This document shows, piece after piece, positions 1 through 10,593 of a stretch of 10,593 nt of DNA. The stretch lies in contig JAEORY010000099.1 in NCBI GenBank assembly GCA_016840645.1, positions 1-10,593 on the forward strand, written 5' to 3'. Made by a program: the position numbers and the translations under genes. The first letter of the stretch is position 1. Each line of letters starts with the position of its first letter. The notes below the pieces were generated by a model. The model ran no database searches. It saw only the letters and a list, made by a program, of their open reading frames with translations, and had not been told where the DNA came from. Source of the stretch: Candidatus Borrarchaeota archaeon. GTDB taxonomy: Archaea > Asgardarchaeota > Sifarchaeia > Borrarchaeales > Borrarchaeaceae.

Positions 1-548
1 GTCTTAATGGTGAGGTTGAGCAAAGTCTTTGCACTGACATCCGTAACAACTTCAACCCGAACGATGCCGTCCCTTTCAAGGATACCGAAAACAGGCACTT
101 TCCCGGCAGCGCCTCTGCCTCTGTTGCCTTTTCTTCTACCCCCGAAGTATGCCTCATCCAGTTCGATCTCTCCTGTAAGCAGATGATTGCTGTCGGTGTT
201 GTTCGCTACAATAGCCATCCTCATTACATTGACTGCTTTAAGGACAGTAGGATAGCTGAGGTCAACCTGTTGGCAGATTTTCCTGGCAGAGAGCTCCAAT
301 TCAAAGAACTTAATAATCCAAAGCCAATCTCGGCAACTAATCCGGACTTTATTAATCCATCGTCCGGTGAAATCATGAAAGGTGTATTTACACCGTTTAC
401 ATCTAAACCTTTTGCCTGCGATTCTGTAGATTTCGTAGCTACGACATCTCCTGCAGAAACGACGGTAGTTTTTCCAACATAGATTTGTAAAGAACCTTCG
501 AGCTATATTTTCAGTTCTGATAAGATTTTCAAAGGATTTTAGGTCCAT
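1..548 (-). CDS. IS1595-family (ISXO2-like) transposase, N-terminal 182 residues, C-terminus outside window
   Basis: Reading the minus strand from the ATG at 548 gives 182 codons without a stop, running off the left edge. The protein opens with a short helical region, then a zinc ribbon with CxxC pairs at residues 32/35 (FCRRC) and 50/53 (CKRC), a helix-turn-helix-like stretch (SARKICQQVDLSYPTVLKA), and the start of the DDE catalytic domain. The motif IELDEAYFGGRRKGNRGRG, first acidic residue D121, is the hallmark of the IS1595/ISXO2 group. Known family members are roughly 300 residues, so more than a third is missing because of the window edge. An in-frame TAA at 558-560 makes 548 the first possible ATG; no clear Shine-Dalgarno site precedes it. 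The frame is intact over the visible part, so the element may be functional. Confidence 0.9.
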   Translation of the reverse strand, partial: MDLKSFENLIRTENIARRFFTNLCWKNYRRFCRRCRSYEIYRIAGKRFRCKRCKYTFHDFTGRWINKVRISCRDWLWIIKFFELELSARKICQQVDLSYPTVLKAVNVMRMAIVANNTDSNHLLTGEIELDEAYFGGRRKGNRGRGAAGKVPVFGILERDGIVRVEVVTDVSAKTLLNLTIK

Positions 549-679
549 GACACCATATTAATCTGGTGCCAAATGTTTTACAATTACCGAAAATTATTAT
601 CTATCTACCAAAAAAGGAAATCTCCTGTTAAGAAAAAACTGAACTTATAGAAATAATCTTAACAAAGGAGGTTTCAAAT

Positions 680-846
680 AGGTGTAATAAATCGTATAAG
701 AGCATAGGAATTTCGTCAAATAAAGAGTTCAGAGTCTCACAGGAGCATTTGATCGCAGGAATTGACTTGCCAAGGAAAAGCACAACGCATTCTTTTGCAC
801 CACCACAGAAAGACACTTCTGGAGTGTCTGGTCTTTAAGAATACTA
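680..846 (+). pseudogene. IS110-family transposase remnant, N-terminal part, frameshifted
   Basis: Three reading frames must be joined to recover the start of an IS110-type DEDD transposase. Frame A (743-778) reads EHLIAGID, carrying the first catalytic aspartate context. Frame B (769-798) reads AKEKHNAFF, and frame C (813-844) reads TLLECLVFKNT. These correspond in order to the conserved family pattern around 'GIDIAKEKHNAFF...KTLLRRLVFENT'. A good ribosome site (AAAGGAGG, 664-671) precedes it, but the nearby GTG is followed at once by TAA. The fragment stops where the IS630 element inserted and resumes at 2090. It is certainly inactive. The family call rests on motif recognition, not an alignment. 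Confidence 0.75.
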
Positions 847-847
847 T

Positions 848-870
848 ATTATCGTTCCATAAATAATATT
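848..870 (+). repeat. Left terminal inverted repeat of the IS630 element
   Basis: The sequence begins ATTATCGTTCC and is identical over 23 bases to the reverse complement of 2066-2088. It lies just beyond the stop codon of the transposase. Confidence 0.9.
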
Positions 871-874
871 ACAT

Positions 875-2005
875 CTAAGCAACGGCAGCCTCATCCATTT
901 TATAATGCCATCTAAATACAACAGGCTCTTGATTGAATTCGGCAATCCCTTGGTATATGCGCTCCACAAGCTCCTGTTTTGAGCTAACTCGAATACGGCG
1001 TAACACGGATCGAGATAACTTACTGAAAAAAACTTCTATCAGATTAAGCCATGAACCATGCTTTGGGGTAAAGACAAAATCAAAACGACTCGGCTTATCC
1101 TTCAGACACTTCTGAGTCTCTTTGGATATGTGAGCGGAATGATTGTCAAGAATCAATCTGATTTTCCAATGCTGAGGATAAGTTGCATCAAGCTTTGATA
1201 AAAATTCAATAAATTCCCGACTCCTATGCCGATCTTTGACCAGAGGAATGATATCGCCTGTATGTAAATCAATACCGGCAAGCAGAGAAACGGTGCCAAG
1301 TCTTTTATATTCGTTGTCTCGGGTGATAGCGGGATGCTTATTAGGTATGGGTAATAAATCTGCCACGATGTTTTTAATAGCCTGTATGCCGGGCTTTTCA
1401 TCATAGGAGATGGTGGTACAATTGCGCTCAGGCGATGATGTCTGTTTGTTGAGGAGTTCGACTTCTTTGTACACATAAAGTACATCGGCCATTTTCATTT
1501 CAAAGTCCTGGTTGCGTCGTTCCTGGTAATACCTGATCTTATGGGGTTTAATGTTTCCTTTGGATAGAATCGCGTTGAGTCTGCTTTTGCCCAGTTTCAA
1601 TAGACCTGGATAGCCTTCTTTTTCGCAATGCGCTCTTACATGTCTGATAAGGGCGGAATAGGTCCAGGTTTCTGATGCGTACCCCAGGTCGTTTGGTTTC
1701 TGGCAGGCAAGGGATAACACCCACATCTTTGCATCGTCAGGTATCCGTGCCGGCCGGCCGGGCCGAGGCAGGTCTTTCAGCGCCTGCAAAGGGCCGAAGC
1801 TAATAGCTCTGTCTAGTGTGCGTTCCACGGCAGGGCGATTGGATTTTATTTCACGTGCGATTTCGGTGACTTTTTTTCCGGATTCATACATGAGAAGCAC
1901 TGTAGCGCGATTCACTCTGCCTGCCGGTTCTGTTCGGCTCCGGCTTATTTGATTTAATTTTTCGCGTATTTCCATGGTAAAGTTCAAAGGTGGTCGTTTT
2001 TTCAT
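875..2005 (-). CDS. IS630-family transposase, intact, 376 residues
   Basis: This DDE transposase carries out cut-and-paste movement of the surrounding element. The N-terminal third is a homeodomain-like helix-turn-helix region (about residues 30-100, with RVNRATVLLMYESGKKVTEI and the arginine-rich linker RPGRPARIPDD). The catalytic domain shows the first aspartate D202 in ISYDEKPGIQA, the second D287 in LILDNHSAH, and the glutamate E324 in HGSWLNLIEVFFSKLSR; the last two are 36 residues apart, normal for the family. The ATG at 2005 is preceded by AGGGAGG (2014-2020 on the minus strand), which fixes the start. The stop lies only four bases inside the left inverted repeat, so the gene fills the element. 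No frameshift or missing catalytic residue is seen. Confidence 0.95.
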   Translation of the reverse strand: MKKRPPLNFTMEIREKLNQISRSRTEPAGRVNRATVLLMYESGKKVTEIAREIKSNRPAVERTLDRAISFGPLQALKDLPRPGRPARIPDDAKMWVLSLACQKPNDLGYASETWTYSALIRHVRAHCEKEGYPGLLKLGKSRLNAILSKGNIKPHKIRYYQERRNQDFEMKMADVLYVYKEVELLNKQTSSPERNCTTISYDEKPGIQAIKNIVADLLPIPNKHPAITRDNEYKRLGTVSLLAGIDLHTGDIIPLVKDRHRSREFIEFLSKLDATYPQHWKIRLILDNHSAHISKETQKCLKDKPSRFDFVFTPKHGSWLNLIEVFFSKLSRSVLRRIRVSSKQELVERIYQGIAEFNQEPVVFRWHYKMDEAAVA

Positions 2006-2065
2006 GATTTCTGCCTCCCTCGTAAATTTTTACTTGGGAAGATAACATCAAATCAATCATATTGC

Positions 2066-2088
2066 AATATTATTTATGGAACGATAAT
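2066..2088 (-). repeat. Right terminal inverted repeat of the IS630 element
   Basis: Its reverse complement matches 848-870 over all 23 bases. It lies upstream of the transposase, which reads leftwards, and is followed after one base by the duplicated TA at 2090-2091. Confidence 0.9.
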
Positions 2089-2089
2089 C

Positions 2090-2362
2090 TAGAGTGGGCT
2101 TGAGAAGCTATTCACACATATTGAAGTGGTGAAATCGAAGTATGCTCTTGAAAAGCTAATATTTGGTTTTGAACCAACAGCTAACTCTCATAAGCCATTG
2201 GGAGAGTATCTGGTGCACTGTGATCGTAGTGTTGTGTTAGTCAGTGGCAAATCGGTAAAGAATAACCGCGAGCTTTTGGATGGTCACTGGGACAAACATG
2301 ACACGAAAGATTCATACAACGCAGCTGACCTAATCTCCCAGGGAAAATTCATGTACTATTAA
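2090..2362 (+). pseudogene. IS110-family transposase remnant, continuation after the IS630 insertion
   Basis: From about 2095 the frame reads SGLEKLFTHIEVVKSKYALEK and continues through FGFEPTANSHKPLGEYL and VSGKSVKNNRELLDGHWDKH to AADLISQGKFMYY, then TAA at 2360-2362. These are typical consecutive motifs of the N-terminal DEDD domain of IS110-family transposases. They pick up where the fragment ending at 846 stops; a short frame change is needed at the junction. The family usually runs to 300-400 residues, so the central and C-terminal parts are missing or shuffled. Just after the stop another frame reads LLILAWTLMKKQEFFNPGYL (2364-2423), which looks like a transposase C-terminus and could be what is left after an internal deletion; that last point is a guess. 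Confidence 0.8.
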
Positions 2363-2406
2363 GCTTTTAATCCTTGCATGGACTTTGATGAAGAAGCAGG
2401 AATTCT

Positions 2407-2721
2407 TTAATCCTGGTTATCTGAACAAAGCGGATCCTTTTGAGCAGCCAACTGGAAAAGCTGCTCCTGAAGCTTTAGAGTGTCTGCCAAGTCCTTTTTT
2501 ACATTTAGAAATATCTTATTGAATTTGTCAAATTTCAATAAAAAGCCAATTTTCCCTCTACCAACATATTAGTCCGGTTCGATTTCGCCGATATTGAACG
2601 GCTCCTATCCCAGCAACGATAAAATTTTTAGCACAATGCTCTGCTTTAGAGCAGCTTCCTTAAGTAAGCCTATCCGATTATCGGATTGGATCTTTTTGAG
2701 AAATTCGATTCAGTCCTTCAT
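2407..2721 (-). pseudogene. Decayed restriction-type nuclease N-terminal fragment (HsdR-N-like)
   Basis: A single minus-strand frame, preceded by GGAG eight bases before the ATG at 2721, gives 105 codons interrupted by TGA (2710-2712), TAG (2605-2607) and TAA (2569-2571), and ends at TAA 2407-2409. Read through the stops, it resembles the N-terminal domain of type I restriction R-subunit-like proteins: IEFLKKIQSDNRIGLLKEAA, KQSIVLKILSLLG-x-EPFNI, then VGRGKIGFLLKFDKFNKIF and LNVKKDLADTLKLQEQLF. In the family, the PD-(D/E)XK site lies at 'GGKVDFAL' and 'IEVKK'; here the aspartate is Gly and the glutamate is Asn, so the site is gone as well. The frame is never shifted, only stopped. The last 20 or so codons may belong to neighbouring transposon debris. 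Family assignment is from memory of motifs. Confidence 0.6.
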
Positions 2722-2855
2722 TGTTATCTCCATCTATTAAATTTTCTTATACAATCATTTTCACCACTGTCTTAAACATTCGGCCGAAGCCTTTCATTTA
2801 ATACTTCCCTAAAGATTATTGCTAAACAAAAGTCAAACAGAGACTTGATCCTTTT

Positions 2856-3005
2856 TCATAGTTCTCCAATTTTCTTGAAGATGAACTGACGATACTCTGC
2901 TCCTTCTCGATATTCATCAATAAGAGGAGTTATGTCTTTCTTGGCGAACTTTCGTAATGCGTCACTCAAGGTTTTTTGTTCATCCGTGAAGGAAAGATCA
3001 ATCAT
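2856..3005 (-). pseudogene. Acyl-CoA dehydrogenase, N-terminal 49 residues only
   Basis: The ATG at 3005 opens a frame reading MIDLSFTDEQKTLSDALRKF, then AKKDITPLIDEYREG and FKKIGEL before TGA. This is the standard start of the acyl-CoA dehydrogenase N-terminal helical domain (family length about 380 residues), which continues in functional enzymes with 'GELGF/Y..' and the rest of the fold. Nothing matching the remaining 330 residues follows, so the gene is truncated. It begins 11 bases after the stop of the crotonase gene on the same strand, so the two once formed a fatty or aromatic acyl-CoA degradation operon. The deleted part is replaced by the decayed restriction fragment and insertion-sequence debris. 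Confidence 0.75.
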
Positions 3006-3016
3006 GATTCTTTTTT

Positions 3017-3805
3017 CTATTTGCCTTGAAATACAGGTTCCCTTCTTTCCTTAAATGCCTTGACTCCTTCCCTAGCGTCAGCAGATTGAATACATAACGT
3101 CTGTGCGTAACATTCAAAGTCAAGTTCTGTTTTCAGATCTTTGTCCAGACTCCCTGTCAGGGCCTTTTTCGTCATTTTTATGGCAAGAGTTGGACCGTTT
3201 AGTATCTTGTTCACTAAACGACTAACCTCATCATCAAGACCTTCCGGAGGCACAACCCTGGTGAGCATACCCATACGATATGCATCAGGGGCTCCAATAA
3301 CCTCCCCAAGCATGAGCATTTCCGTGGCCCTTGTAAGACCAACCAGCCTCGGAAGCAGGTAGGCTGCCCCCGCATCCGCACCCGTAAGCCCGACTCGAAC
3401 GAAGAGAAATCCAAATTTGGCAGCTTCGACTGCTATTTTGAAATCACATGCAATAGCTAATATTGCACCACCACCATAGGCATCTCCATTTATCCTTGCA
3501 ATAACAGGAATATCCATCGTCCGTATCTTTTCGATACAATCAAGATACACCTTTACTACCCTATGGGCTTCGACGGCATCACTATTAACCCGTAAAATCT
3601 CATCCATATCCCCACCGGCGCAAAACGAATTTCCTTCTCCAGTCAGAATTAACACCTTAAGTTTTTCATTCTGACATACAACCCTGAGGGCATCTCTTAT
3701 ATCCACTCCCATCTGGGTGGACATGGCGTTGAGAACATCAGGGCGATTCAAGATAATCGTTGCTCTTGCTCCATCTAAAGCCAGTTTTATGGTTTCGTAT
3801 TCCAT
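3017..3805 (-). CDS. Enoyl-CoA hydratase/isomerase (crotonase) family protein, 262 residues
   Basis: The full-length protein has normal crotonase architecture: RATIILNRPDVLNAMS near residue 13, the first oxyanion-hole motif FCAGGDM at 61-67, and the second, GDAYGGGAILAIACDF, at 107-122. The C-terminal region has VIGAPDAYRMGMLTRVV and the final EGVKAFKERREPVF. Typical family members act on CoA thioesters in the cytoplasm. Both glutamates used by classical hydratases (rat E144 and E164) are absent: the aligned positions are I115 and F135. An aspartate, D144 in GLTGADAGAAYLLPRLVGL, may serve instead, as in isomerase-like subgroups, so the exact reaction cannot be named. AGGAGG at 3810-3815 fixes the start at 3805. 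It leads an operon whose next gene, an acyl-CoA dehydrogenase, is truncated; an IS30 remnant sits directly upstream. Confidence 0.92.
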   Translation of the reverse strand: MEYETIKLALDGARATIILNRPDVLNAMSTQMGVDIRDALRVVCQNEKLKVLILTGEGNSFCAGGDMDEILRVNSDAVEAHRVVKVYLDCIEKIRTMDIPVIARINGDAYGGGAILAIACDFKIAVEAAKFGFLFVRVGLTGADAGAAYLLPRLVGLTRATEMLMLGEVIGAPDAYRMGMLTRVVPPEGLDDEVSRLVNKILNGPTLAIKMTKKALTGSLDKDLKTELDFECYAQTLCIQSADAREGVKAFKERREPVFQGK

Positions 3806-3863
3806 ATTGCCTCCTTTATTTTCAGAGCCTGGGAGATGTTTATTTTAATTTAGATTGCGTTCT

Positions 3864-4554
3864 TCAGCTTTTATCCAAACTAAACTTTTCTCGTGCTTCA
3901 TCAGGCGCAGCAACCAGATCAGCCTGTTTCTTTTTAAGCTTTCTACTAAGGGTTAATTTAATCTTCCTCTCAATGAGGCTGAGCGATGCTCCTTTGTGCC
4001 GTTTCCCAATGATGGTGTCGATCTCCCAATCACCGATCCGTTTTCTGTTATCCACGATGGCTGGTCGTTCATCGATACTTTCATGGCCCTTTATCTGACC
4101 GTATTGATCACATGACCCGTAGCGTTTCCTATGTTTTTTATGAGCGTGTCTCAAGTGGCGATATAAAGTACCCCTTCTGACTTTATCGGCAAGCACATGG
4201 TGGTAGACAGTCTTATGCCTAATTCGAAGGTTATGTGTTATTGTTAAGACACCACAAACCTGCTCCGCGCTAAAATCCTGACAGAGAAGTCCTTCTAGGA
4301 GGCTAATAACTTCAGGGATGAGTTTGACATATTTTTTGGCTTTTTGGCCTCGTACCACAGGTATGAAATGAGCATGCTTCGCGCGGTAGCCTTTTTTCTT
4401 GGTTCCATTTCATTTCCCTACTTACTGTGGATTTGTGAATCCCTATTTCAGAGACAATGTCTGTTTTTGAAAAATTTGCTTTCATACATGCGTATAGGTG
4501 GTATCGTTCCTCTTGAGCTACCTGTGTGTATTGACCCGTAAGTGCTTCTTTCAC
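3864..4554 (-). pseudogene. IS30-family transposase remnant, frameshifted and 3'-truncated
   Basis: The gene opens with GTG at 4554 (4552-4554) and reads the IS30 helix-turn-helix region, YTQVAQEERYHLYACMKANF then EIGIHKSTVSREMK. At a run of six adenines (4392-4397, minus strand) the frame changes: the original frame goes out of register while another reads GYRAKHAHFIPVVRGQKAKK. That second frame continues through DFSAEQVCGVL, HKTVYHHVLADK and ERPAIVDNRKRIGDWEIDTI, the first catalytic aspartate context. Similarity stops at KKKQADLVAA, about 3906. The rest of the DDE domain, with the second aspartate and glutamate (about 100 residues), is missing, so it is inactive. The final codons PDEAREKFSLDKS (3864-3905) look like unrelated host sequence. 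A likely outer terminus on the 5' side lies near 4612-4642. Confidence 0.85.
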
Positions 4555-4642
4555 TTGGTGGTTTGAGGATGCGTGTTACATCGCAGTTAACTCGCATCCT
4601 TAACCGCTTTGTCGTGTTGGACTTATGAGTTGAATTTAGATT

Positions 4643-5470
4643 TTATTCGATTTTAAGTGCGTGAAATACAGATATATTTATACATTAAAAGTAATTTAAA
4701 GTCACTTCAAACAAATATATACTTAAAATCGTCAGATCAGTTGATCTGATTATAAACGCTAAACGTAAAGTCAATTTCCGCTCCGTTAATCCGGCTTTTT
4801 AACCCTAAACAAAATGCCCATCGGCGTTAAGAATCCAGACTCTGGGTTTGTTGTTGACCATTGCGGTTAATACTTTGTTATATGAAATCCCAGCATATAA
4901 AACTATGATACCTGAAATCTATACGTAATTCCACTAATATCAGAAATGTCGTGGTATTCAAATCGTAATCCAACAGCCTATTCGGTTTTCTTACTGCCCA
5001 ATCCCAAGGAGGATCAAGAGTGTGCAATAGTAGATGAAATCTGAAAAATCCTCTGATTCAATGTTTCTGCTATGGTTGTTGAGAAATCGAAAGCCAAAAA
5101 CTTATGTACTTGTGTTTATAAGATCGATACAAGTTTAGTACAAACAGAGAATTGACTATGCCACGAAGTCATAACCTATTGATCAAGTTAGCCAAGCGAA
5201 ATATAAAGATTCTTTAGATCCTCAACTGCTTCTTTCTAACATTTCCCCTGAGTGAATGAATCTCGATAAAATCGGGAAGGGAACTTTTGCTACTTCTTTA
5301 AAATGTAAAATGATTTTAGGTGCATAGCCATAACCGAATCTTAAAAATCTGCACCTTTTGGGCCAATAAACCCTCTAAAAATTTGGCTTTGTCTTGTTGA
5401 TTTAAGACATTACCGCCAAACGAATTTCACAAAAGGCCTTCAACCACACTATCATGTAGGCACTGTGTAC
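4643..5470. other. Gene-poor stretch, no supported gene
   Basis: No open frame here has a recognisable protein. Stops are frequent in all frames on both strands. One minus-strand run of about 44 codons (5222-5353), with FGYGYAPKIILHFKEV and ILSRFIHSGEMLERSS, has the look of coding sequence but no family I can name; it may be a decayed gene. On the plus strand, short coding-like runs such as SNRNPTAYSVFLLPNPKEDQ occur between stops. A palindrome is listed separately. Together this suggests degraded coding DNA rather than a regulatory region. Confidence 0.5.
4732..4749. repeat. Perfect 8-bp palindromic arms around a 2-bp centre
   Basis: TCAGATCA-GT-TGATCTGA is an exact inverted repeat about 90 bases beyond the probable IS30 terminus. 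Its form would suit a dimeric repressor operator, but no promoter or regulator gene is adjacent, so it could be chance. Confidence 0.35.
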
Positions 5471-5499
5471 TTGACACACAACGATGCTTTTCTTATATT
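5471..5499 (+). promoter_or_regulatory. Sigma70-like promoter, TTGACA-N17-TATATT
   Basis: A consensus -35 (TTGACA, 5471-5476) is separated by 17 bases from TATATT (5494-5499). It points to the acyl-CoA synthetase gene starting at 5641 or 5713, leaving a leader of 130-210 bases. The match is close enough to take seriously in AT-rich DNA. Confidence 0.5.
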
Positions 5500-5584
5500 T
5501 TTCCATAATAAGGGCTGTCTTACCAATCAATCATGCAGATAAATATCTCTCAAGTAATCTACTCTGGGATCAAGGGACTTTGTG

Positions 5585-5614
5585 GTTGACACACCTTCGC
5601 CTGTTATCTATGCT
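5585..5614 (+). promoter_or_regulatory. Second sigma70-like promoter, TTGACA-N18-TATGCT
   Basis: TTGACA at 5585-5590 and TATGCT at 5609-5614 are 18 bases apart, with a predicted start near 5621. Both this and the upstream promoter begin TTGACACAC, so they may be tandem promoters of one gene. Transcription from here would give the ATG at 5641 a leader of about 20 bases. Confidence 0.4.
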
Positions 5615-5640
5615 TCTTCCCTAATACTTTCTTGGCATAG

Positions 5641-7137
5641 ATGGTGAAAGCTAGTTCGCGCAATGTTTTCGTATTCATTTGTCAAGAAGACTTAAACGAA
5701 TGGATACACCATATGACAACTCATAGTACTCCAAAATCTCATTTCCGAAATGATCTACGTAATTTTTTTGACGCTCGGAGCATCGCCATTATTGGAACAT
5801 TTAAGGAGGGATGGTTTGGTGGGTCTATAATGATTACATCATTGATGAATGCCGGCTATAAGGGGAAAATCTTCCCTATTAATCCGTCTTATAAGGAGGC
5901 TCATGGCCTGAGCGTTTACTCCAGCGTGAGCAATGTAAAAGACAGTATTGACCTAGCGATCATCATGATAAACGCTAAGAGTGTGCCCCGAGCTGTACAT
6001 GAATGTGCAGAAAAGGGTGTGAAAGCGATTATCGTAGTAGCGGATGGCTTTGCAGAGAGAGATCAAGGGGGACTTCTGCTTCAACGCGAGATAGTGGATA
6101 TTGCGGAACGTACTGGTATTCGTATTATCGGTCCAAATACCGCGGGGATCGTGAATACCGCCAATGGCTTGAACATGTGTCCGTATGATGCCGGGTATTA
6201 TAAACTCAGAAAAGGATCAGTAGCTATTTGTGCTCAAACCGGTGTAACGAACCCTCAGGCATTTCCTTATCATGATCTTCAGTTCGGGGTGAGTAAGATC
6301 TGCGATTTCGGAAATAAATGTGATGTGGATGAATGTGATCTTCTGGAATACTTGGAGGAGGATTCTTCGACGAGTGTTATTAGCATGTATCTGGAAAGCA
6401 TCACTAATGGACGAAGATTCTTGGAAGTTGTCAGCAGAGTTGCTCTAAGGAAGCCTGTTTTACTATTGAAAGCGGGAAAAACCCAGGAGGGTGCTCGTGC
6501 ATCGGCCTCCCATACCGGCTCCCTTGCCGTCGATGATCATATCTTTGAAGCGGCATGTAATCAGGCAGGAGCTCTGAGGCTTGAGAGATTCAATGATCTC
6601 TTTGAGATACCGAAGATATTTGCCTATCAGCCATTACCCCAGGGCAACAGGATAGGTATTGTCACGTTTACTGGTGGTTTAGGAGTACTGTCAATAGACG
6701 AGAGTGCGAAATATGGATTGGTTGTCAGCAGGCTGAGCAAACGAACAAGGGATTTTCTTAACGATATTTTTCCAAACTTGGGGGAGATTCCGATAGATAT
6801 AGGGCCACCGTCTGTGACCATAAAGGATTTTCTCTCTCATTACCCTAAGATTATCAACGCGGTCATTGCCGACGAAAATGTGGATGGCCTGTTCAATATC
6901 CTATGGGTTGATCATGTTGGAAGATATGTTGAAGTGCATGAAACGGTGTATAGACAAATTAGGGGTAAGCACCAAAAGCCTATATTAACATGGCTCTATA
7001 GTCCAAATCAATATATGATTGCGGAAATGAAACAGCGAATGGAGGAATTGAAATATCCAGTATTTAGCGACCTGGAGACCTCAATAAGGGCGCTCGGCAT
7101 GGCTTTAAGATTTAGAAACCTCACACAAAGAAACTAG
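5641..7137 (+). CDS. Acyl-CoA synthetase (ADP-forming) alpha subunit-like protein
   Basis: The protein matches the alpha half of ADP-forming acetyl/acyl-CoA synthetases, which convert an acyl-CoA, ADP and phosphate to the acid, CoA and ATP. Residues 41-84 form the CoA-binding Rossmann start (FFDARSIAIIGTFKEGWFGG, then GKIFPINPSY). DGFAE (135-139) and IGPNTAG (163-169) follow. GNKCDVDECDLLEYLEED (224-241) and RASASHTGSLA around H291, the phospho-histidine position, mark the ligase domains. It ends at ETSIRALGMALRFR, where the alpha part normally ends; the ATP-grasp beta domain (about 230 residues) is absent and no beta gene is in the window. Family homology begins around residue 35, so M25 (5713) is a plausible alternative start. 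Neither start has a convincing ribosome site. The substrate is unknown; fatty or aromatic acyl-CoA is suggested by the nearby crotonase. Frame intact. Confidence 0.85.
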   Translation: MVKASSRNVFVFICQEDLNEWIHHMTTHSTPKSHFRNDLRNFFDARSIAIIGTFKEGWFGGSIMITSLMNAGYKGKIFPINPSYKEAHGLSVYSSVSNVKDSIDLAIIMINAKSVPRAVHECAEKGVKAIIVVADGFAERDQGGLLLQREIVDIAERTGIRIIGPNTAGIVNTANGLNMCPYDAGYYKLRKGSVAICAQTGVTNPQAFPYHDLQFGVSKICDFGNKCDVDECDLLEYLEEDSSTSVISMYLESITNGRRFLEVVSRVALRKPVLLLKAGKTQEGARASASHTGSLAVDDHIFEAACNQAGALRLERFNDLFEIPKIFAYQPLPQGNRIGIVTFTGGLGVLSIDESAKYGLVVSRLSKRTRDFLNDIFPNLGEIPIDIGPPSVTIKDFLSHYPKIINAVIADENVDGLFNILWVDHVGRYVEVHETVYRQIRGKHQKPILTWLYSPNQYMIAEMKQRMEELKYPVFSDLETSIRALGMALRFRNLTQRN

Positions 7138-8170
7138 ATATTTCTCAATGTGGCTTAAGGCTATTGTTAATCGTAATTTGCGCTGGTGACTTTATCACAC
7201 ATGGTCTGCTCGACAAGTCGCCTCCACGTGTAAGCATACCATATCACAAGATACATTTGTGCATATTAAAATGGTTGAAAATAGGGACATCCTCAAATAA
7301 TTCAATAAAATTATCCCATGAGGTGATAGTTGTTCTCTTCTGCTATAATTTCACCTCTCTGAACTGAAGAGCTTATTACAGAAGAGCTTATTACGAGAAG
7401 TCGGAATTCCTGTAAGGGGTAGGATTGCAATTTTTTCCCAATTCAACCTCTCTAGGTCCAGTTCTTCATCTTTTCAAAATGTTGCACCATCTACTCACAT
7501 CTCAGAAGGAGAGAAAATAAGGCTAGGCTATCGAGAGTAGAATTACTTTCTTTGCAGTGTGTCTCAGTTCTTATATAGCCTCTAATCATCTGTAAAAAAT
7601 AACAAGGCCGGTCTTTCAGCAACTCTAAGCCTTACAAGCAAGGGATTTCAAAGGTATTTAAAATAAATCCTCTCCATTCTTTAAAGTAGGAGAAACTAAA
7701 TATTGCAGTTTGTGCCTTCATTAAAAAACTCATGCTAAATTTTCCATATAGTGAAATCTTATAAATTTAAACATTGCATATAGTAAGTTGAAATTTCAAC
7801 ATTGAATTGAATCTCGTAAGCAGAAAAACTCAATAGAAAAAACGTATTTCAAGGTGAAATAGATTGTTGGGAAGCAATGATCGATATCCAATGTTTGTAC
7901 CGGAACTAGATGAATGACTATCAGCAATAGCCCTTTCAAAATTGTGATGCTTTTCCAATTTGGTCGATGGATGATTTTAGTTACAGGTTACACGAAATCA
8001 TAGTCGGCCACCACATCTTGTGATTTGCAGAATTGGGCCTAGGTGTTAGGTTACTGTTATAATAGAAAGTCGTGCCTTGTCTGAAGGGCTTACAAATGAT
8101 GTTAGTAATCTGTAACGGTATCAAACAAGTATCTGGGCAGGCATATCATTATGAAAGTACCGTTTTTCGG
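7138..8170. other. Gene-free kilobase, AT-rich
   Basis: No frame on either strand shows a recognisable protein or a start with a ribosome site. It holds a 15-bp tandem duplication (7366-7395) and a weak inverted pair GAGGTGA/TCACCTC (7320-7326 and 7351-7357). The longest plus-strand run (7164-7367, TTG start) has no family resemblance. I see no RNA gene or strong terminator. Confidence 0.5.
7366..7395 (+). repeat. Two tandem copies of a 15-bp unit
   Basis: GAAGAGCTTATTACA (7366-7380) is followed directly by the same unit with a final G (7381-7395). It looks like a recent slippage duplication; no function is evident. Confidence 0.8.
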
Positions 8171-8563
8171 TTAATAATATGACTTTGATTCATGATCCCT
8201 AATCCTCCTCTCTAACGTATCATAAATCTCCCTATCAATAATCTTTTCCCAATCTCTACGAAAATCCGTGGGGTAAATTTCTATTACATCATACATATTT
8301 TGTTTATAGGCTCTCCGTTTATAATTGTTGAGCTTTGCTTTTTTGGGGTTTTCATTCATTCCTAAATATTCAATTAGTATATGATAATCATCCAGAAAAA
8401 AATCAGGATAAAAAATCTTGGTCTTCCCTTGATATACAACTGCCACTGGCCTTTCGTAGGTGAAATTAATTTTCCTATTGTGCAGATAATTACCGATTTT
8501 TCTCTCACCCATTGATTTGTAATGATTCAACAGTTTGTTCTGGAAAATCATGATAGGAGCCAC
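8171..8563 (-). CDS. Small PD-(D/E)XK-like nuclease domain protein, 130 residues
   Basis: I recognise a fold pattern, not a named family. The order is an N-terminal helix with SMGERKIGNYL (E20), a strand region KINFTYERPVAV, then FYPDFFLDDYHILIEYLGM with D54 and E65, and basic helices NNYKRRAYKQ followed by YDVIEIYPTDFRRDWEKII. This E-PD-ExL arrangement resembles small restriction-endonuclease-like domains found alone or attached to helicases and mobile-element proteins. The third catalytic lysine of the ExK signature is not in place (EYL), so activity is uncertain. The start is unclear: GTG at 8563 or ATG at 8551, neither with a ribosome site; a stop lies five codons above the GTG. It may be an N-terminally shortened or solitary domain. 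No methylase or partner gene is nearby, and the neighbouring regulator is divergent. Confidence 0.6.
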   Translation of the reverse strand: MAPIMIFQNKLLNHYKSMGERKIGNYLHNRKINFTYERPVAVVYQGKTKIFYPDFFLDDYHILIEYLGMNENPKKAKLNNYKRRAYKQNMYDVIEIYPTDFRRDWEKIIDREIYDTLERRIRDHESKSYY

Positions 8564-8762
8564 AATGTCCCAATGCTATTTAAATCTTGTGGTTCCAATA
8601 GATCCCCTTCTGGATGCAAATAGAGTGGATAAGAAAAATCAGTCTCTTCCTTGTTTTCTCTCTGAATATTCTTACAAAACAACTCTTATCAATAATGATT
8701 CTTTCTTAGTTTGAGATTGCGAGCAAGAGACATCTTCAGAAATGAGATAGGGGAATAATATC

Positions 8763-8792
8763 TTGATGAAAGTTTTATAAATTCTCTAAAAT
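8763..8792 (+). promoter_or_regulatory. Possible promoter for the winged-helix gene, TTGATG-N18-TAAAAT
   Basis: TTGATG (8763-8768) and TAAAAT (8787-8792) are 18 bases apart, with a predicted start close to the ATG at 8803, which has no ribosome site. Transcription might therefore be nearly leaderless. The DNA is AT-rich, so a chance match is possible. Confidence 0.3.
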
Positions 8793-8821
8793 TATATTCC
8801 AAATGAATATCAAATCTATCG

Positions 8822-9328
8822 TTGGCTGGATGGCTCAGTCGAAAATTACCCAAATTTTACTTTCATTCTCTTCTCCACACTCCAAGGCAAGTAGAAAAAG
8901 CCCTTGGAATAAAAAAGATTAAGATGAAGCCCTTTGTAGAAAAGAAACTTATTGAAATTCTCAATCCAGAAGCCAGGAAAGGCCATCTTTATAGAATAAC
9001 TGATACAGCAAAAAGCCAGCTTAATGTATCTGTTTTTAATAAAAAAGGTGGAAGAAATTTTAAATTGATAGGGTGGATTGTATCAAGTCCTCGACAAAGG
9101 GTGGTTATTTTAAAAGTACTGGATGGTCTAAAAAGGACCTCTGAAAACATACGAGAAAGAGCGTCAAGATACAATCCTCACTTATCGAGAATAAGCACAA
9201 AGGGAATATTAAAAGAGATCATCAAGAGAAATTTGGTTCAGAGTAAGATGATTGACGTGAAAAGATATTATTGGATTAGTGAAAAAGGGAGGGTGGTGAG
9301 GGAAAAGTTGGAGTTTAATATAGAATGA
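8822..9328 (+). CDS. Tandem winged helix-turn-helix DNA-binding protein, 5' end frameshifted
   Basis: The open frame gives 168 residues from a TTG, but the first 18 or so look wrong. In the other frame an ATG at 8803 reads MNIKSIVGWMAQSKITQILL, and a one-base correction near 8875 joins it to TPRQVEKALGIKKIK. The repaired protein is two copies of one domain. Copy one runs from IVGWMAQSKITQILLSF to GHLYRITDTAKSQLN; copy two from LIGWIVSSPRQRVVILKVL to KRYYWISEKGRVVREKL. Each has helices, a recognition helix and a wing strand ending in 'YxIT/SxxxK/G', as in ArsR/MarR-like and many archaeal regulators. It is probably a transcriptional regulator or mobile-element control protein. As written it lacks most of the first domain's leading helices, so it may be a fresh pseudogene, or the frameshift may be a sequencing error. 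Its neighbours are the divergent nuclease and the tRNA-half boundary. Confidence 0.7.
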   Translation: MAGWLSRKLPKFYFHSLLHTPRQVEKALGIKKIKMKPFVEKKLIEILNPEARKGHLYRITDTAKSQLNVSVFNKKGGRNFKLIGWIVSSPRQRVVILKVLDGLKRTSENIRERASRYNPHLSRISTKGILKEIIKRNLVQSKMIDVKRYYWISEKGRVVREKLEFNIE

Positions 9329-9340
9329 GACATGCCGAGA

Positions 9341-9381
9341 TCTACTCTTTTTTGTCTACCAAATGTCTACCTTTTTCTACC
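9341..9381 (+). repeat. Phased short direct repeats, TCTACC-like
   Basis: TCTACC occurs at 9355, 9366 and 9376, with TCTACT at 9341, so the three full copies are spaced 11 and 10 bases, about one helical turn. The cluster lies between the winged-helix gene and the tRNA half. It could be a binding site for that protein or an integrase/excisionase arm site; this is inference. Confidence 0.5.
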
Positions 9382-9508
9382 GACAGCATGCTAAGTATTT
9401 GATATTATTCACATCATGCACAGCATCCACAAGGGGATTTTGAAAATAGGTGGCCAGGAAATACGTTTTAATTTCAACAATTTATAGATTTATTTTTATG
9501 TGATTATG

Positions 9509-9555
9509 TCTGAATGGGGTTCAGGGGGTCGCGAGTTCAAATCTCGCCGTCCCGA
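9509..9555 (+). tRNA. 3' half of a tRNA-Pro (GGG), probable integration (att) site
   Basis: The 47 bases fold as tRNA positions 27-73: anticodon stem TCTGA/TCAGG (one T-G pair) with a seven-base loop ATGGGGT, giving T33, anticodon GGG and G37; a five-base variable loop GGGTC; T-stem GCGAG/CTCGC with loop TTCAAAT; acceptor 3' strand CGTCCCG; and discriminator A. No CCA follows (TCA instead). The 5' half, whose acceptor strand should be CGGGACG, is absent upstream and elsewhere in the window, and there is no D-arm. A 3' tRNA fragment of this kind is the usual far-end footprint of an element integrated in a tRNA gene. Since the fragment reads rightwards, the element should lie to its left and the complete tRNA beyond the left edge. 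Confidence 0.75.
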
Positions 9556-9681
9556 TCAGTAAATATCAAAACCCCTCCCCTCATTACTGCCTTTTTAAAA
9601 TCTTCTATTTACTTTTTATCTTTGCAGTATGTTAAATATTTAGCCTGAAGGAGGTTTTAAAAACGAAAAGATATAAAAAAT

Positions 9682-10311
9682 CTATGGCTTTTCTACCATG
9701 AGATACCTATCTTTTGGGAGCCGAGAAAAAATCACAGCACCTGCACACGGTGCAACAAGCTTTTTAGGTAATGTATTGCCAATTACTTGGAAGAGTTCTA
9801 AACAACAGGAACATAAGTTTGCACTTCTGTCAATCGAATAGGGAATTTTTTGGCCATTTGACTCGATATAAAATTGGGGTTTGATAAAATTGGCGTGACA
9901 TGCCGTATGAGTGAGAAAAAGAGAATCCCAGTCCTCCTCAGATCCGAGTTTCCTTGCCCACCTTATCCAAATTCTTTTTTCAAGGTCTGTAATAATATAC
10001 CACTCTCGAGGAACGAGAGGCTTAAATTGTTCGTCCTTTACCATGTTCTTTTTTTCTTCTTTTGTCATTGTTCTTGGTAGAATAAAATCTGATCGTGTAA
10101 TCACAGCTTCTTTAAATCGTTTATAGCCATCTAATTCAAATGAGCTAATTATGAGATATTTTCCATTTTTCTCTGAGTTTCTATACCAGCTCCCCTGTCT
10201 GTGGCATGTGCTGTCCCACACCTCTGGAGGGACGCTAATTATCTTACTGATCTCATCAAGGCCAACGCAAACGACTGCCTTCCCTGGTTTAAGCTTTATA
10301 TTCTGGCGCAT
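9682..10311 (-). CDS. Conserved-looking hypothetical protein with C-terminal cysteine cluster, 209 residues
   Basis: I do not recognise a named family. The protein is soluble, with no signal peptide or membrane segment. It has five cysteine sites: C15, C36, C138 (THTACHANF), a cluster C167/C169/C170 (ANLCSCCLELFQ) and C189 (VAPCAGAVIF). The spacing could bind metal or a cofactor, or take part in redox. The middle contains REWYIITDLEKRIWIRWARK. The open frame continues above the ATG for about 26 codons (KPQKKYIKHVYWLWREQEEE) to an AAAGGAG site, so the true start may be a non-ATG codon near 10389. It lies 79 bases (from 10389) or 157 bases (from 10311) after the HdrA-like gene on the same strand, suggesting co-transcription and a role beside that electron-transfer protein. 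Confidence 0.75.
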   Translation of the reverse strand: MRQNIKLKPGKAVVCVGLDEISKIISVPPEVWDSTCHRQGSWYRNSEKNGKYLIISSFELDGYKRFKEAVITRSDFILPRTMTKEEKKNMVKDEQFKPLVPREWYIITDLEKRIWIRWARKLGSEEDWDSLFLTHTACHANFIKPQFYIESNGQKIPYSIDRSANLCSCCLELFQVIGNTLPKKLVAPCAGAVIFSRLPKDRYLMVEKP

Positions 10312-10468: not shown

Positions 10469-10593
10469 TTATTCACTCACTTGATCAATCATAGTCATAA
10501 TCTGACCCTCATCAAATCCGTTCAGGTGTATGGCGCCTGATCTGCAAGAAGCGACACAGAGACCGCATCCCTTGCAAAGTACAGGATTTATCT
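10469..10593 (-). CDS. HdrA-like protein, C-terminal ferredoxin end (partial)
   Basis: Only the last 41 codons are inside the window; the rest lies beyond the right edge. The visible part carries a 4Fe-4S motif, CKGCGLCVASCRSGAI (CxxCxxCxxxC), followed by FDEGQIMTMIDQVSE and the stop. This ending, with a ferredoxin cluster then 'F..xQI..MI', is typical of heterodisulfide reductase subunit A and related flavoproteins that handle electron transfer or bifurcation in anaerobes. A stand-alone ferredoxin-type subunit cannot be excluded. It is probably transcribed together with the hypothetical gene that follows leftwards. Confidence 0.7.
   Translation of the reverse strand, partial: INPVLCKGCGLCVASCRSGAIHLNGFDEGQIMTMIDQVSE

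Follow-up and report, generated by a model that had tools for sequence, protein, structure and literature searches.

The window, by which we mean the whole stretch of 10,593 nucleotides analysed here, carries transposase genes and their remnants together with metabolic genes over most of its length, followed near the right end by the 3′ half of a tRNA gene and by a conserved protein-coding gene (Table 1).

Table 1. Coordinates of the features in the window, in order from left to right.
Feature	Position	Strand	Basis
IS1595-type transposase, cut by the window start	3-548	-	PF12762, PF12760
Insertion sequence bounded by 30-nt inverted repeats, DDE transposase ORF at 875-2005	844-2092	-	PF13358, E 5.7e-24
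IS110-type transposase fragment	2126-2362	+	PF01548, E 1.1e-6
Enoyl-CoA hydratase/isomerase ORF, uninterrupted	3017-3805	-	PF00378, E 1.3e-56
Broken transposase remnant in two overlapping frames	3864-4554	-	4312-4554 matches HTH_38 below cut-off
CoA-binding/succinyl-CoA ligase-like ORF (acyl-CoA synthetase type), 498 aa	5641-7137	+	PF13607, PF13380
Small endonuclease-like protein, foreign side	8171-8563	-	PHROGs Holliday-junction resolvase/endonuclease, E 4e-6 to 2e-4
Winged-helix-like regulator ORF, decayed, last gene of the foreign side	8822-9328	+	5′ part out of frame relative to homologues
Tandem of TGTCTACC, TGTCTACC and TTTCTACC, about 130-160 bp left of the junction	9353-9381	+	arm-site idea unsupported
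Junction of foreign DNA (left) and ancestral locus (right)	9509-9510	.	break in match to L001 and L026
Orphan 3′ half of tRNA-Pro(GGG), canonical nt 28-73; proposed distal attachment site	9510-9555	+	46/46 identity to relatives
TCA in place of CCA	9556-9558	+	CCA encoded in 13/13 intact genes of the order search
Ancestral spacer separating tRNA-Pro from the gene downstream	9559-9681	.	104/119 to L001, 79/120 to L026
Gene for conserved 209-aa protein, right neighbour of tRNA-Pro in L001 and L026	9682-10311	-	490 homologues, 33 genome loci
Probable next gene of the ancestral locus, a conserved sequence upstream of the 209-aa gene that is truncated by the window end	10484-10593	-	84-85% nt identity to L002 and L003

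In regard to the left part, the insertion sequence at 844-2092, which we take to be IS630-like, is bounded by arms at 844-873 and 2063-2092 that are 93% complementary. It appears to be whole and directly adjoins the IS110-type transposase fragment, into which it was perhaps inserted. The broken transposase further to the right is presumably IS30-like, and its frame at 3864-4358 had no match among Pfam families. The sequence-only reading had described insertion-sequence debris and broken genes on the left, giving way sharply to apparently intact genes on the right; this holds roughly, but the enoyl-CoA hydratase, the acyl-CoA synthetase-like and one transposase ORF on the left appear uninterrupted. 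A copy of the acyl-CoA synthetase-like ORF, 76% identical, is present in G005, a genome from the order of the relatives described below. In a PHROGs scan of four ORFs, the endonuclease-like one alone gave matches at E<0.001, and the one of its 47 homologues that bears an organism name comes from a Thermodesulfobacteriota MAG. Likewise, one of the 48 homologues of the winged-helix-like protein carries an organism name, that of a Pacearchaeota MAG, and the protein is found on three contigs, the longest of 10,810 bases. Its family was found in none of 85 genomes of the relatives' order and none of 395 genomes of the phylum, sets that held no positive control, so that these absences weigh little. 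In searches of viral contigs, 59 pattern-matching stretches yielded no confirmed relative of the winged-helix-like protein, likewise without positive control, and 35 yielded none of the 209-aa protein. Furthermore, none of the 250 stop-to-stop frames of at least 25 aa in the window resembled any of four tyrosine recombinases at E<=0.1. Apart from the tRNA half, 7139-9509 was not clearly matched by the att regions of G014 or G011, the best remaining hit having E 0.37, and DNA similar to 7000-9600 was absent from plasmid records and matched phage records at the fragment only.

The fragment itself is the 3′ half of tRNA-Pro(GGG), as had been read from its letters: in a BLAST comparison of 9500-9560 with 33 fetched relatives, 9510-9555 was identical over 46/46 nt to the intact gene in each of L001, L002 and L026, an identity that refers to genes of relatives and not to the host's own copy. 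The tract comprises the anticodon loop (GGG at 9516-9518), the variable loop, the T arm and the 3′ acceptor strand, and reaches the end of the tRNA gene with the discriminator A (A73) at 9555. It occurs once in the window and in none of 200 shuffled sequences. ARAGORN called no tRNA gene anywhere in the window, hence no complete gene spanning this locus, and the 28-nt 5′ half of the L001 gene was not found there with up to three mismatches, as the sequence-only reading had stated of the 5′ half. That reading had also begun the fragment at 9509. The half is real, but the homologous tract starts one base later, at nt 28, as the relatives have C27 and the window has T at 9509; this T can still form a wobble pair with G43, which is why it had been taken into the fold. 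The folding of the fragment is modest (-18.1 kcal/mol, z -1.82, with 13 of 200 shuffles folding equally well or better), and the evidence for a tRNA half therefore lies in identity of sequence and not in the fold. The only dyad kept in the window half is that of the natural stem, CTGAA/TTCAG. Near-zero divergence of the half apart from its CCA suggests a fairly recent event.

What lies to the right of the fragment is an old neighbourhood of this tRNA gene. An alignment of 16 sequences of the 209-aa family (A1) was used to scan genome contigs and gave 33 loci, of which L001 is the closest by protein identity (87%). The family has 490 homologues, and the organism names among the best 120 are Deltaproteobacteria, Desulfatiglandales or Thermodesulfobacteriota; it had no Pfam match at E<=0.1. 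Its members are strongly conserved, with invariant cysteines and SANLCSCC in 16/16 aligned sequences. Intact tRNA-Pro(GGG) lies within about 140 nt of the 209-aa gene in two of the 33 loci, L001 and L026. In a third, L002, it is 3.5 kb away, beyond a long ORF that is presumably a Lon protease, and in the remaining 30 none was called within the stretches examined. This Lon-like ORF (L002:1030-4640, in G002) sets that locus apart from L001 and L026, and the intergenic spot thus varies in content among relatives. Upstream of the 209-aa gene, nucleotide identity between 10484-10593 and L002 and L003 likewise falls upstream of their own 209-aa genes. On the other side of tRNA-Pro, L001, L026 and L002 carry a cyclase-type ORF (PF00211 for L001) and past it a further ORF that we take to be synthase-like; BLAST found no match in the window to either.

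In the three-way alignment of the window with L001 and L026, the window agrees with L001 at 8/30 positions over 9480-9509, 46/46 over 9510-9555, 104/119 over 9559-9681 and 552/620 over 9682-10301, and with L026 at 8/30, 46/46, 79/120 and 348/444 over the corresponding stretches. Homology to L001 is unbroken from 9510 rightward and breaks sharply to the left, and therefore the right side represents the old locus, to which the sequence before 9510 is foreign. The fragment accordingly does mark a junction, as had been proposed, and from these comparisons 1-9509 appears to have replaced the ancestral side at tRNA position 27/28.

The same site was followed in the relatives' order. With up to three mismatches, the 46-mer was found in 13 of 85 genomes, with 14 matches in all, and ARAGORN called an intact tRNA-Pro(GGG) at 13 of them; the exception is L047 in G014. 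This genome, a single contig of 5,085,533 bases, has an intact gene matched at 239,357 and, downstream of it on the same strand and 1.29 Mb away, an orphan half at 1,525,930. An integrase ORF (PF00589, E 3.9e-31) ends 14 nt after the intact gene. L040 matches the flank upstream of the intact gene, and the flank downstream of the orphan half resembles both L036 and L040, so the outer flanks of the pair resemble the two sides of a single locus in G002 and G013; beyond the pair, one end has a cyclase-type ORF and the other end a Lon-like ORF, an arrangement that G002 shows at its single locus. Furthermore, a perfect 11-bp inverted repeat around 7 bp, CCCCCTGAACC / GGTTCAGGGGG, spans the start of the orphan half, and an inverted repeat of this size and spacing has the shape expected of an integrase core site. 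Past the integrase comes an RNA-methyltransferase ORF, and to the left of the orphan half lies an L-PSP family ORF. The spacing of 1.29 Mb could mean that att sites bound a very large segment, but a rearrangement that moved two borders apart is more likely; together with these two ORFs, the gap points to a later rearrangement, which is a warning for the reading of the window as well.

Integrase sequence at tRNA-Pro was also seen in G035, where the C-terminus of an integrase adjoins the gene (PF00589, E 5.8e-19), and in G011, where a 43-residue remnant lies beside it. It is thus present in at least three of the 13 genomes, a count made with the G014 integrase as the sole tblastn query and on contigs some of which end near the tRNA gene. 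Two other matches were not counted as element integrases, one in L003, which we take to be a XerC-type ORF, and one in L002 that covered only residues 1-30 of the query. In G014 we also observed a dispersed repeat of about 280 nt (L048:4556-4835), which matches dozens of places in G014, G002, G013 and G009, and another of about 92 nt (L048:3500-3591) with copies in G014, G002 and G013; both are perhaps small non-coding mobile repeats.

Phages and prophage-like contigs present a similar picture. A distant BLAST search of 7000-9600 against phage records matched the fragment in two circular phages, with 86.5% and 88.1% identity, whose annotated integrase genes lie 82 and 44 bp from the half. An exact 40-nt pattern gave no stretch in IMG/VR, and a looser pattern gave 16 stretches on 15 contigs, with an intact tRNA-Pro called by ARAGORN in 6 and the half alone in 10. 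Three of the 15 records hold two copies on one strand, the orphan lying downstream of the intact gene at distances of 68.9, 10.7 and 13.9 kb; two of these, G465 and G468, agree in their one-mismatch half and in the distance to the integrase and could represent a single element, which would leave perhaps two independent pairs. Integrase matches were found in 11 of the 15 records, over the cut-off in 10, and in G465 and G468 the match is about 1 kb from the orphan half. The first nucleotide shared with an intact gene fell at 26-33 in all 12 comparison sites (the two circular phages, nine of the ten IMG/VR orphans and G014) and falls at 28 in the window, where the sites are a selected set, nine found with a pattern starting at T33 and that of G014 with a pattern starting at nt 28, so that values of at most 33 are forced for the IMG/VR sites and of about 28 at most for G014, the clustering in the stem not being forced. 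The reference intact genes were taken from other contigs or genomes (L103, L104, L034 and L037) and not from the host of each element, so that an individual boundary may be shifted by one or two bases; L113 was omitted from this measurement, there being no intact gene with its stem to serve as reference.

The tandem at 9353-9381 was also considered as a set of integrase arm sites, a reading that found no support in the order search, the IMG/VR controls or the shuffles. Its exact pattern occurred in none of the 85 genomes of the relatives' order, and one of 29 IMG/VR stretches with the longer tandem form had an integrase-like frame within 1.5 kb, compared with 113 of 5800 control positions, in a test whose narrow motif would overlook many integrases. 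The single 8-mer with one mismatch has nine matches in the window, a number reached by 13 of 200 shuffles, which is no clear enrichment. As a separate observation, a nearly identical block recurs in 11 of the 29 IMG/VR loci (L057, L059, L060, L064-L066, L071, L072, L075, L080 and L082), in which ATTTGTCTACC units are flanked by TCCTACAAATGG and CATTTGTAGGAC arms; it may be the operator or origin of some phage group.

Taken together, 9510-9555 is very probably the displaced 3′ end of the host tRNA-Pro(GGG), lying at the far border of a site-specifically integrated element. It is supported by the orphan half itself, by a right flank that is ancestral and a left one that is foreign, and by the sharp break at nt 27/28, as well as by the matching architecture in one relative, in phages and in prophage-like contigs. 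With a shared tract running from the anticodon stem-loop to the 3′ end of the tRNA and a first shared nucleotide at 28, the attachment site would belong to class A, the anticodon-centred one. According to the mechanism that we propose, a tyrosine integrase would have recombined the chromosomal gene, within its anticodon stem-loop, with a site on the element that bore a 3′ half of tRNA-Pro(GGG) of its own. At the left border, which lies beyond the window, the copy of the element would have restored a complete tRNA gene, and the original nt 28-73 of the host would have been pushed to the right border at 9510-9555. All of 1-9509 would then be element, rather than the result of later insertions or rearrangement. 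The two further proposals of the sequence-only reading, an element to the left of the fragment and a crossover in the anticodon arm, are supported, the first by the geometry, with foreign DNA on the left and ancestral DNA on the right, and the second by a break position that fits the crossover sites in phages and prophage-like contigs. The partner which that reading had led one to expect, intact tRNA-Pro(GGG) adjoined by a tyrosine integrase gene, is found in one relative, G014. Against a border of this kind speak the 9.5 kb to the left in which no integrase was recognised, a left side made of insertion-sequence debris and metabolic genes instead of a tidy element, the failure of 7139-9509 outside the half to match clearly the att regions, plasmids and phages compared, and the 30 of 33 loci with the 209-aa gene and no tRNA-Pro within the stretches examined.

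Alternatively, a chromosomal rearrangement or a deletion driven by insertion sequences could have broken tRNA-Pro(GGG) and joined its half to unrelated DNA, or the element could long since have been separated from its border. The wealth of insertion-sequence remnants on the left would fit such events, as would the 76% identical copy of a left-side gene in the relatives' order and the 1.29 Mb between intact gene and orphan half in G014, according to which borders seem to become separated. However, breakage at random is not expected to fall on nt 27/28, near the spot common to all 12 att-type sites, and no insertion-sequence end was recognised at 9509/9510, the nearest recognised remnant ending at 4554; we therefore regard this explanation as unlikely. 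A rather improbable idea sees in the left flank an element family not yet described, belonging to sulfate-reducer-like bacteria; its border genes, for the winged-helix regulator and the small endonuclease, are otherwise found in metagenome contigs, and the one occurrence of the former in the Pacearchaeota MAG would hint at archaeal-bacterial exchange at tRNA-Pro.

The contig could also be a chimera of metagenome assembly, formed at a tRNA sequence common to two organisms or to a host and a free element. In favour of this, the record probably stems from a metagenome, a 100% match to the 209-aa protein is encoded on a jgi contig of 7,444 bases, and the family of the last left-hand gene was not found in the 85 genomes of the order and the 395 of the phylum. 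Yet a join at the common half would still need an orphan half, that is, an att site, on the left molecule, and both the CoA-ligase ORF on the left, with its 76% identical copy in the relatives' order, and the nuclease, with its homologue in a Thermodesulfobacteriota MAG, speak against a chimera, which is very unlikely. Finally, there is next to no chance that the 46 nt belong to a tmRNA or another functional RNA instead of a tRNA-gene remnant: a partial tmRNA is the best Rfam match to the stretch, but its 16.9 bits, far below the 47-bit cut-off, rule out that identity, and the alignment with L001 contradicts it through the 46/46 match to tRNA-Pro(GGG) with the same downstream gene.

The border of an integrated element thus favoured here places one probable mobile-element boundary to the base in a little-studied bacterial group, and points to tRNA-Pro(GGG) as an insertion site of the anticodon class in the relatives' order. 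Such boundaries help to delimit elements in metagenome contigs, and no general view is altered by this one.

Among known systems, the closest frame is that of Islander, whose signature is a whole tDNA at one border and a displaced 3′ fragment at the other, with tDNA, fragment and integrase required in one replicon; a table there counts 2083 of 3919 islands as anticodon-centred and 3760 with 3′ fragments (PMC4383910). In the window the displaced tDNA end fragment is present and the other half is missing at the same place, whereas an intact cognate tDNA in the same orientation with the fragment downstream is seen in G014 and in 3 of the 15 IMG/VR records. Islander admits distances of 2 to 200 kb from tDNA to fragment, a limit that the 1.29 Mb of G014 would exceed. 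In contrast to islands defined by tDNA, fragment and integrase together, the element in the window is known from its fragment alone. The target gene and isoacceptor are the same as those of Sinorhizobium phage phiLM21 and prophage phiSM11-017, and for phiLM21 a 64-bp attP is described that contains identity to the 45-bp 3′ end of tRNA-Pro(GGG) (PMC12429752), compared with 46 here. Unlike phiLM21, an alphaproteobacterial phage with a known tyrosine integrase, the window offers one border with no integrase seen, and its host is read as desulfobacterial. Likewise, Achromobacter phage CF418P1 (OQ817832) and Bacteriophage sp. ctLpZ231 (MW202444), the two circular phages above, which come from other sources and have no other match to 7000-9600, carry a tRNA-Pro(GGG) 3′ half as presumed attP. 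In archaea, a study of 20 Thermococcaceae genomes, concerned also with annotation errors, calls tRNA gene fragments from integration pervasive and notes that partial and full genes may reveal rearrangements (PMC9897764); the likeness to our case lies in partial tRNA genes as a by-product of integration. The site in the window is a further instance of this well-known integration scar, in a new place.
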